Shown: positions 44,256-48,102 of the stretch, piece after piece
Layout of the letters: the number at the start of each line of letters is the position of its first letter
Numbering within the stretch: position 1 is the first letter of the stretch
From: Iamia majanohamensis
GTDB taxonomy: Bacteria; Actinomycetota; Acidimicrobiia; Acidimicrobiales; Iamiaceae
DNA length: 64,000 bases
Direction: 5' to 3'
Assembly (NCBI RefSeq): GCF_028532485.1
Contig: NZ_CP116942.1
Location: forward strand, 2,418,001-2,482,000
Program-made: the position numbers and the translations under genes
The notes under the pieces: generated by a model
Told to the model about the DNA's origin: nothing
The model's input: only the letters and a program-made list of their open reading frames with translations
Databases searched by the model: none

Positions 44256-45446
44256 CTACAGGCTGAGGGCGGACTTCAGGTCGTCGACCCGGGTGGTCTT
44301 CTCCCACGGCAGGTCGCCCTTGCGCCCGAAGTGGCCGTAGGCCGCGGTGTTGGCGTAGATCGGCCGGCGCAGGTCGAGGTCGCGCAGGATGGCCGCGGGG
44401 CGGAGGTCGAAGACCTCGGGCACGACCTTGGCGATCTGGTCGGGGTCGACCTTCTCGGTGCCGAAGGTCTCGACCAGCAGCGAGACCGGGCGGGCCACGC
44501 CGATGGCGTAGGCCACCTGGACCTCGCACTTCTCGGCCGCGCCGGCGGCGACCAGGTTCTTGGCCACCCAGCGGGCCGCGTAGGCGGCCGAGCGGTCGAC
44601 CTTGGACGGGTCCTTGCCGGAGAAGGCGCCGCCGCCGTGGCGGGCCCAGCCGCCGTAGGTGTCGACGATGATCTTGCGCCCGGTGAGGCCGCAGTCGGCG
44701 TGGGGGCCGCCCAGCACGAAGGTGCCGGTGGGGTTCACGTAGACCTGCAGGTCGGGCGAGACCAGGCCCTCGGGCAGGATCGGGTTGATGACCTGCTCGA
44801 TGAGGTCGGGCTTGATGGTGCTGTCGATGTCGATGCCGGGGGCGTGCTGGGTGGAGATCAGCACCGTGCTGATGTCGACCGGCTTGCCGTCCTCGTAGTT
44901 CACCGTGACCTGGGTCTTGGCGTCGGGACGGAGGTAGGGCAGGGTGCCCGCCTTGCGCACCTCGGCCAGGCGCTCGGCCAGGCGGTGGGCCACCCAGATG
45001 GGCAGCGGCATGAGGTCCTCGGTCTCGTCGCAGGCGTAGCCGAACATCATCCCCTGGTCGCCAGCGCCCTGGCTGTTGAGCTCGTCCTCACCGGAGGTGC
45101 CGGTGCGGGTCTCGTAGGCGGTGTCGACGCCCTGGGCGATGTCGGGCGACTGCGGGTCGATGGTGGTGATGACGCCGCAGGTCTTGCCGTCGATGCCGTA
45201 GTCGGCGTCGTCGTAGCCGATGCGCAGGATGGTGTCGCGCACGATCTTGGGGATCTCGACGTAGGCGTCGGTCGTGATCTCGCCGGCGACGAGGGCCAGG
45301 CCGGTGGTCACCAGCGTCTCGCAGGCCACGCGGGCCATGGGGTCCTCGGCCAGGATGGCGTCGAGGATCGAGTCGGAGATCTGGTCGGCCATCTTGTCGG
45401 GATGGCCCTCCGTCACTGACTCGGACGTGAAGGTGAAGCGGCTCAC
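44256..45446 (-). CDS. metK: S-adenosylmethionine synthase
   Basis: 396 residues. It makes S-adenosylmethionine from methionine and [15 protein letters not shown] near the start, [14 protein letters not shown], the P-loop-like [18 protein letters not shown] and the basic end [11 protein letters not shown] are all present. GTG 45446 has AAGGAG 8 nt upstream, one of the best ribosome-binding sites in the window. The 25-bp gap to coaBC leaves no room for a SAM riboswitch. Confidence 0.97.
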
Positions 45447-45471: not shown

Positions 45472-46722
45472 TCACGGGCTCTGCGCCGGGGCCCCCTGCG
45501 CCGCGGCGCGAGGGCGCAGGGCCACCACGGCATCGATCACGGCGCGCGCCACGGCGCGCTTGTCGCTCAGGGGCACATCTTTGTCGATCCCGTCGGCCCC
45601 GACGAGCACCACCTGGTTGGTGTCGTGCTCGAAGCCGACCCCGGGGGCGCCGACGTCGTTGGCCACGATGAGGTCGAGGCCCTTGCGGGTGAGCTTGCCC
45701 CGGGCGTTGGCGAGGACGTCGTCGGTCTCGGCCGCGAAGCCGACCAGGACCTGGCCGGCGGGCTTGTCGCGGCCCAGGTCGACGAGGAAGTCGTGGGTGG
45801 GCTCGAGGGTGATGGCGGGCGGGCCGGCGTCCTTCTTGATCTTGCCGGGGGCGGGGTCGGCGGGGCGGAAGTCGGCCACCGCGGCGGCCATCACCACCAC
45901 GTCGACCTCCGGGGCCCGGGGGACGACGGCGGCCTCCATGTCGGCCGCGCTCTCGACCCGCACGACCTCGGCCACGCCGGGCGGGGTGGGGCGGTCGACG
46001 GTGGTGACGAGGGTGACCGCGGCCCCCCGGGCCGCGGCCTCGGCGGCCACCGCGTAGCCCTGCTTGCCCGACGAGCGGTTGCTGATGACCCGGACCGCGT
46101 CGATGCGCTCGCGGGTGCCGCCGGCGGTGACGAGCACCCGGGCGCCGTCGAGGTCGCGGGGCACCACGGCGCCGGCGACGGCGGCCACGACGGTCGCGGG
46201 GTCCGCCAGGCGCCCGGCCCCGACGTCGCCGCCGGCCAGGCGGCCGGCCTCGGGCGGCACGACGGTGACCCCCCGGCGGGCCAGGGTGGCCAGGTTCTCC
46301 TGCACCGCGGGCTGCTCCCACATCTCGGTGTGCATGGCCGGGGCCACCACCACCGGGGCCCGGGTGGCGAGCAGGGTCGCGGTGAGCACGTCGGCCGAGC
46401 GCCCCGTGGCCAGGTCGGCGAGCAGGCGGGCCGTGGCGGGGGCCACCACCACGACGTCGGCGGCCTGGCCCAACCGGGTGTGGGGGATGGGGTCGGAGCC
46501 GTCGAACAGCGACGTGAGGGCGGGCTCGCTGGCGAGGGCGGAGAAGGTGGTGGCACCGACGAAGCGCTGGGCCCCGTCGGTGAGCACGGGGGCCACGTGG
46601 GCGCCGGCGTCGACCAGGCGGCGGCACACCTCGACCGCCTTGTAGGCGGCGATGCCGCCGGTGACGCCGAGCACGACGGTGCGGCCGGCCAGCGCCGGGT
46701 GCGGGGTCGGGGGCGCGGTCAC
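45472..46722 (-). CDS. coaBC: Bifunctional phosphopantothenoylcysteine decarboxylase/synthetase
   Basis: 416 residues. The N-terminal FMN-dependent decarboxylase ([30 protein letters not shown], with His where E. coli has Asn, as I recall also in mycobacteria) and C-terminal synthetase ([40 protein letters not shown]) make 4'-phosphopantetheine for coenzyme A. GTG 46722. It follows rpoZ in the conserved actinobacterial order. Confidence 0.96.
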
Positions 46723-46756: not shown

Positions 46757-47101
46757 TCAGCTGGCGCCGTCGCCCTGCTCCGCCTCGAGGGCGGCGGCGT
46801 CGGCGGCGGCGGCGGCCTCGGCGGCCGCGGCCTCGGCCAGCTCCTCCTCGGTCGGCGGGTCGACGGGGACGATCTTGTCGGCCGCGATCTCCTCGAAGGC
46901 GATGGAGAGGGGCTTGCGGGCCACGCTCGTGACCTGCGGCGGCACCAGGGTGCCCAGGCCCTCGCCCAGCTGGCCGAAGTAGGAGTTGATCTGCCGGGCC
47001 CGGGTGGCGCCCAGGGTGACCAGCTTGAACTTCGACTCCTCGGCCCGGGTGGTGAGGTCCTCGATGGCCGGGTTCATCATCGTGTCGTGCTGCCAGCTCA
47101 T
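46757..47101 (-). CDS. rpoZ: RNA polymerase omega subunit
   Basis: 114 residues. NPAIEDLTTRAEESKFKLVT and ARQINSYFGQLGEGLG are the omega fold that clamps beta-prime; PLSIAFEEIAADKI closes it. An Ala/Glu-rich tail of about 30 residues follows. ATG 47101 is taken; the ATG pair at codons 8-9 is an alternative. TAGCGT (47146-47141 on the minus strand) may be its own promoter, with GAGGA before the start. Confidence 0.94.
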   Translation of the reverse strand: MSWQHDTMMNPAIEDLTTRAEESKFKLVTLGATRARQINSYFGQLGEGLGTLVPPQVTSVARKPLSIAFEEIAADKIVPVDPPTEEELAEAAAAEAAAAADAAALEAEQGDGAS

Positions 47102-47196: not shown

Positions 47197-47721
47197 TCAG
47201 GCCCGGGCCGCGGCCACCACCGCGGCCGTCAGGGCCTCGGGGTCGGCGGCGGTGGAGTCGAGCACCAGGTCGTAGGGCGCCATGTCGGCGATGTCGATGG
47301 CGTAGTAGGTCCGGTAGCGCTCGGCCTCGCTGGCCTCCCGGGCGTCGTTCTCGGCCCGGGCCCGCCCCGGGTCCGAGCCCTCCCGCGCCGCCACCCGCCG
47401 GGCCCGCTCGTCGGGGTCGCAGGCCAGCCACACCCGCAGCGCGGCCAGGCCCTCGTTGCGGGCGATCCAGCCGGCCAGGCGGGACTCCAGGACCACGTCG
47501 CCCCGCGCCCCCCGGTCGGCCAGGCGGGCGTCGAGCTCCTCGTCGATGCGGGGGTCGGCCTCGGCCAGGGCCCCGAAGGGGGCCAGCCCCAGGCCCCGCT
47601 CGGCCGCCATGGCCCGAAACACCTGGCCCCCGTCGACGTGGTCGAGGGCGAGGGCGTCGGCGACCCGGCGGGCCAGCGTGCTGGTGCCCGAGCCGGGCAG
47701 GCCGGAGATGGTGACGAGCAC
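47197..47721 (-). CDS. cmk: Archaeal-type cytidylate kinase
   Basis: 174 residues. The sequence matches, in my memory, the archaeal CMP kinase family rather than bacterial Cmk or Gmk: TISGLPGSGTSTLARRVA, where the P-loop Lys is Thr as in the archaeal enzymes; DGGQVFRAMAAERGLGLAPF; DPRIDEELDARLAD; VVLESRLAGWIARN; and YYAIDIADMAPYDLVLDST. It should phosphorylate CMP or dCMP. The slot between mihF and rpoZ normally holds guanylate kinase. ATG or GTG 47721. Specificity for CMP is inferred from family resemblance. Confidence 0.85.
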   Translation of the reverse strand: MLVTISGLPGSGTSTLARRVADALALDHVDGGQVFRAMAAERGLGLAPFGALAEADPRIDEELDARLADRGARGDVVLESRLAGWIARNEGLAALRVWLACDPDERARRVAAREGSDPGRARAENDAREASEAERYRTYYAIDIADMAPYDLVLDSTAADPEALTAAVVAAARA

Positions 47722-47790: not shown

Positions 47791-48102
47791 TCAGAAGGCG
47801 TCGAGCAGGGCCTTGCGCTGCTGGGCGCCGAGGCCCTTCAGCGTCCGGCTCTCGGCGATCCCGATGTCCTCCATCGTGCGCCGGGCCTTCACCTTGCCCA
47901 CGCCGGGCAGGGACTCGAGCACGGCGAGCACCTTGGTCTTGCCCACGATGGTGTCGCCGTCGGCCTGTCCGAGGACCTCGGAGAGGCTGAGCGAGCCCAT
48001 CTTGAGCTTCTCCTTGAGCTCGGCCCGCGCCTTGCGCGCGGCTGCGGCCTTGGCCAGGGCGGCTTCGCGCTGCTCGGGCGTCAGTTGTGGGGGCTGTGGC
48101 AT
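47791..48102 (-). CDS. mihF: Integration host factor, actinobacterial type
   Basis: 103 residues. An N-terminal basic helix (PEQREAALAKAAAARKARAE) and the helix-two-turns-helix core (VLAVLESLPGVGKVKARRTM, then EDIGIAESRTLKGLGAQQ) are diagnostic of mIHF, an essential nucleoid protein in mycobacteria. ATG 48102 lies 6 nt after TAGGGT (48114-48109), a leaderless pattern giving it a promoter separate from pyrF. Confidence 0.95.
   Translation of the reverse strand: MPQPPQLTPEQREAALAKAAAARKARAELKEKLKMGSLSLSEVLGQADGDTIVGKTKVLAVLESLPGVGKVKARRTMEDIGIAESRTLKGLGAQQRKALLDAF

Follow-up and report, generated by a model that had tools for sequence, protein, structure and literature searches.

Which enzyme makes GDP in a bacterium whose guanylate kinase position is occupied by an archaeal-type 'CMP kinase'? 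Guanylate kinase (Gmk) is a drug target and, to our knowledge, near-universal in bacteria. The stretch of Iamia majanohamensis DNA analyzed here (64,000 nucleotides, hereafter the window) has the minus-strand gene order pyrD, pyrF, mihF, kinase, rpoZ, coaBC, metK, priA. The features relevant to the question are:

47791–48102, minus strand: mihF, actinobacterial integration host factor, the upstream flank of the slot (NF041260, actino_IHF, 135.2 bits, cut-off 60).
47197–47721, minus strand: archaeal-type nucleoside monophosphate kinase, proposed GMP kinase (174 residues; TIGR02173, 149.6 bits).
47683–47706, minus strand: P-loop GLPGSGTS of the kinase, with Thr13 replacing the Walker A Lys (read from the sequence; Thr in the whole type-A subfamily).
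47470–47487, minus strand: ESRLAG motif of the kinase, E79–G84 (50 relatives aligned with E. coli Cmk).
46757–47101, minus strand: rpoZ, RNA polymerase omega, the downstream flank of the slot (TIGR00690, 44.1 bits, cut-off 23.6).
45472–46722, minus strand: coaBC, next in the conserved order (open reading frame and conserved position in relatives).
44256–45446, minus strand: metK, next in the conserved order, start estimated (open reading frame translation).

We conclude that this kinase is very probably the cell's GMP kinase, having displaced the canonical Gmk in the slot between mihF and rpoZ.

The kinase gene runs from a GTG start at 47721 to a stop at 47197. An earlier note, made from the letters of the window, had assigned the product to the archaeal CMP kinases, and model searches bear this out. 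TIGR02173 (cyt_kin_arch), the NCBIfam equivalog model for archaeal (d)CMP kinase with a curated cut-off of 102.1 bits, matches at 149.6 bits (E 8e-44) over residues 1–167 and model positions 1–163 of 169, and Pfam PF13189 matches at 76.1 bits. The bacterial cmk model TIGR00017 scores 27.1 bits, far below the 135.55 it requires; the Pfam list (E ≤ 1) and the 25 best NCBIfam matches contain no Gmk model. The quoted motifs are likewise present: the P-loop reads SGLPGSGTST and lacks Lys, and AIDIADMAPYDLVLDST lies close to the C-terminal end. The absence of the P-loop Lys, which had been listed among archaeal traits, holds for this protein but is no general archaeal feature, as 25 of 50 relatives have K at the Walker A Lys position, 24 have T, and 1 has A. 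Thr occupies it throughout the window's own subfamily, type A, whose members are thus P-loop kinases without the Walker A Lys, yet apparently indispensable.

The genome is assembled as one contig of 4.58 Mb, 99.44% complete. The earlier note had suggested looking for gmk and bacterial cmk elsewhere in it; genome-wide, the best PF00625 match reaches 21.8 bits, short of the cut-off of 25.2, and one canonical Cmk scores 218.9 bits. Since canonical Cmk has been kept, CMP phosphorylation was not what needed replacing. An assembly gap was rejected as the cause of the missing Gmk, given the single, near-complete contig and a pattern that is exact in 175 genomes (described below). A Gmk encoded elsewhere in the genome was also sought, and the only candidate was the 21.8-bit match itself, a divergent Gmk/PhnN-like P-loop protein of 283 residues with a C-terminal hydrophobic tail, encoded outside the window and unlinked to the slot (C1:2860133-2860981, minus strand; L001:862-1713). 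Used as a query, it gave one partial match in a Gmk-less relative (G022), and the Gmk-bearing genomes mostly matched through their canonical Gmk.

The distribution of the two kinases is strictly complementary. Among 41 relatives, TIGR02173 exceeds its cut-off in 20, Gmk is found in 20 others, and no genome has both; the sole relative with neither is only 77% complete. Across the 247 genomes of the class, the kinase occurs in 13 and Gmk in 225. When these are restricted to the 175 near-complete genomes (≥90% complete and ≤5% contaminated), 13 have the kinase, 162 have Gmk, none has both, and none has neither. For the thirteenth kinase genome (G271), the lack of Gmk is deduced from the tally and from the genome not appearing in the list of matches. 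With independent labels, the chance of this exact 13/162 split would be 1/C(175,13) = 7e-20, a figure to be read knowing that phylogeny makes the labels non-independent. At the level of the phylum (396 genomes), 8 of the 11 genomes with the kinase lack Gmk and 3 have a Gmk match; Gmk is present in 379 of the 385 genomes without the kinase (Fisher p 3e-11). In two of the three that have both (G454 and G564), Gmk is only partial. The third is G407, a 90% complete assembly in many contigs. There the slot contains an intact Gmk, and a type-A kinase is encoded outside it, next to a folD-like gene (L067 / L103); this genome may represent gain before loss, with both genes still present, or a contaminated or mixed assembly. 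Among 14 named control genomes, Gmk was found in the 10 bacteria and TIGR02173 in the 4 archaea. Of 33 genomes checked for canonical Cmk, 28 have it, so the kinase is not making up for the loss of a CMP kinase.

The gene neighborhood tells the same story at the level of a single position. In every relative with both flanks in view, the slot between mihF and rpoZ holds either Gmk or the kinase. A tree of mihF, rpoZ, and coaBC follows the host families, and the slot occupant does not: it requires 11 changes on the flanking-gene tree, at least 8 of which are forced by supported branches. All eight independent pairs that lie on supported branches are opposing (p 0.008); because the rows were labelled by occupant, this test counts events, and mutual exclusion rests on the genome tallies. 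Because the flanks track host families and the slot occupant switches, transfer of the whole operon was rejected as the general case. The kinase gene of family f34 (L062, L063, L064) points the opposite way to the genes flanking the slot and therefore cannot share a transcript with them. Thus, by slot synteny and full complementarity, the kinase occupies the gmk slot of Gmk-less genomes, and the replacement in place that had been proposed from the window's gene order is strongly supported.

A tree of 50 kinase domains resolves four supported groups: type A, which includes the window's kinase (families f1, f13, f28, f69, and f99); type B (f39 and f42); type C in f34; and type C in f108. The clades A, B, and C in f34 displaced gmk separately. 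The archaeal connection suggested earlier for the window's kinase also stands, as a branch with 100/99 support sets 23 type-A sequences and three haloarchaeal proteins, the only archaeal sequences sampled in this tree, apart from B and C. The nearest archaeal protein found is WP_006067787.1, a plasmid copy of Natronorubrum bangense, 51.6% identical to the window's kinase (TIGR02173, 198 bits) and encoded between DUF106 and cbf5, near an adenylate kinase gene (an adk-DUF106-cmk-cbf5 cluster). A second haloarchaeal member of the family (L072:1959-4077) adjoins a gene annotated as IMP dehydrogenase, the enzyme two steps ahead of GMP. No relatives of the kinase were found in phage records and viral contigs, and one search of genome contigs returned a Dactylosporangium copy only.

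The type-C kinases accompany a different fate of gmk. In family f108, 24 of 81 genomes carry one, outside the slot, and in all 10 stretches from type-C-bearing genomes with the slot in view, the slot Gmk lacks the three lid arginines; 5 of the 10 have also lost the P-loop Lys. Both the lid arginines and the P-loop Lys are kept in E. coli Gmk and in 21 of 21 Gmks from relatives, one of which comes from G407, with its type-A kinase outside the slot. The lidless remnants, in Micromonosporaceae-type genomes, lie between mihF and rpoZ (L101, L102, L110, and L114–L120). L078 is the only remnant that was run against the Gmk models; it comes from G454 and still matches, and such remnants may therefore carry a gmk annotation. 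The copy of Dactylosporangium siamense (Micromonosporaceae) nests among the f108 type-C kinases, and its genome has no PF00625 match. This nesting, like the actinobacterial mihF, assigns the genomes to Actinomycetota. Type-C kinases bear a C-terminal extension of ~120–150 residues (L045, L062–L064, L069, L070, L074, and L075), without a Pfam match in the two that were scanned. Relatives of type C also occur on Rhodococcus and Parabacteroides plasmids.

Residues known to read cytosine offer a view of substrate preference. In the CMP kinase of Thermus thermophilus, cytosine is read by Ser33, Arg107, and Asp127 (PMC7259600). We compared the 50 kinases with E. coli Cmk and found that R41, R131, R181, and R188 are invariant in 50/50, and D185 is replaced by Glu. 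S36 becomes Gly, Val, Ala, or Thr, and D132 becomes Leu or Met; the segment with R110 is missing, although the NMP-binding part aligns poorly and the position of R110 is uncertain. In this alignment, the window's kinase has Gly31, a gap, and Leu82 at the positions of S36, R110, and D132, Arg81 and Leu82 of the ESRLAG motif corresponding to Arg131 and to the cytosine-reading Asp132. The canonical Cmk of the same genome keeps R110 and D132. With phosphate handling conserved and the cytosine contacts missing, the family is not expected, on sequence grounds, to read CMP in the canonical way; given the poor alignment of the NMP-binding part, we take the residue comparison as supporting evidence only. 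A fold model predicted from a two-sequence alignment (pLDDT 79.9, pTM 0.75, low in residues 131–146; pLDDT 46.5 from a single sequence) is closest in the PDB to CMP kinases and a Cytidylate_kin2-like structure, with Z about 15. No Gmk structure is among the 50 best PDB matches, which says nothing by itself, and the comparison does not tell CMP and GMP specificity apart.

What, then, does the kinase phosphorylate? GMP phosphorylation is its most likely function, because the genome lacks Gmk and retains canonical Cmk, and we infer both that GMP is the substrate and that the kinase is essential. The same two observations count against the earlier note, which had implied a CMP substrate and would have taken GMP kinase activity as a refutation. 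The enzyme would phosphorylate GMP (and dGMP) with the gamma-phosphate of ATP, giving GDP and feeding GTP and dGTP synthesis in Gmk's place. It would do so with a CMP-kinase-type fold and the conserved phosphate-binding arginines R36, R81, R128, and R135, and would recognize the base in a way unlike canonical CMP kinase; CMP may serve as a further substrate. On the best reading, the name 'CMP kinase' is a mislabelling by homology, and gmk has been displaced in place repeatedly. Several points speak against GMP as the substrate: the whole family is annotated as (d)CMP kinase, CMP kinases are the nearest structures to the predicted fold, G407 has an intact Gmk along with the kinase, and the window's genome encodes the divergent Gmk-like protein, which could have some activity.

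A serious possibility, if somewhat short of an even one, is that the family consists of broad-specificity NMP kinases, acting on CMP and GMP and perhaps on others, ancestral in archaea, of which the bacteria need the GMP activity only. The four control archaea, which have TIGR02173 with neither Gmk nor Cmk over the cut-off, point this way, since both activities are needed from their remaining kinases; the lost cytosine-reading residues argue against canonical CMP binding. Such breadth is compatible with the window's kinase serving as the cell's GMP kinase. We think it improbable that the slot kinase is a second CMP kinase and that GMP is phosphorylated by another, unrecognised enzyme. The family annotation and the fold agree with such a role, and NMP kinases are able to take on new substrates, but it leaves the repeated loss of Gmk unexplained where canonical Cmk is retained, demands that the unrecognised enzyme co-vary with the kinase in several lineages, and fits poorly with the missing cytosine-reading residues. 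More improbable still is that the divergent Gmk-like protein phosphorylates GMP in this genome while the slot kinase does something else, for although that protein keeps GPSGAGKS, TTRPRRP, and lid-like residues and weakly matches the Gmk and PhnN models, several GMP-site residues are missing, and it was not found in the three congeners or in most other Gmk-less relatives.

The assignment of the window's kinase to GMP has consequences beyond this genome. Cases in which an unrelated or distantly related kinase displaces an enzyme are known; the present instance involving gmk, and its pointer to TIGR02173, appear to be new. Bacteria that lack Gmk and have one defined substitute in its slot make a clean genetic case for what a family known only by homology does. 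The (d)CMP kinase annotations of kinase-bearing genomes are probably wrong, as are calls of 'missing gmk' in metabolic models of them. The GMP phosphorylation reaction is known in archaea. Its archaeal gene was called unidentified in 2014 (PMC4177761). None was found in the later, mostly open-access literature that we searched, which also gave no paper characterizing the TIGR02173 family. Because the swap recurs in unrelated relatives and the kinase is probably the cell's GMP kinase, its archaeal cousins are candidates for the archaeal enzyme, and the kinase and its haloarchaeal relative bear on a long-open gap in nucleotide metabolism. We see an even chance that the TIGR02173 family is, at its root, a GMP (or GMP/CMP) kinase and thus the long-missing archaeal guanylate kinase. 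If so, its repeated capture by Actinomycetota, with the loss or decay of gmk, reveals a function hidden under the name of (d)CMP kinase.

Compared with known systems, the window's kinase shares features with several enzymes and coincides with none. It belongs to the same family as the archaeal (d)CMP kinases (TIGR02173 / PF13189) and shares the ESRLAGW and R/E pattern with the haloarchaeal copy; unlike them, it is bacterial, sits in the gmk slot of a genome that also has a canonical Cmk, has Thr for the Walker A Lys, and probably acts on GMP rather than on the CMP of the annotation. With canonical Gmk (PF00625, TIGR03263), it shares the genomic position and, presumably, the reaction, whereas it has no match to Gmk models, belongs to another branch of P-loop kinases, and is modelled closest to CMP kinases. 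With canonical Cmk (PF02224, TIGR00017), it has the overall fold and the phosphate-binding arginines in common, but it has neither the Cmk insert of the NMP-binding part nor the Ser, Arg, and Asp that read cytosine. Finally, the type-C members have a kinase domain ~35–39% identical to that of the window and co-occur with gmk loss or decay in f34 and f108; they differ from the window's kinase in having a C-terminal extension, keeping the P-loop Lys, and usually lying outside the slot, except in f34, where the gene is in the slot and inverted.
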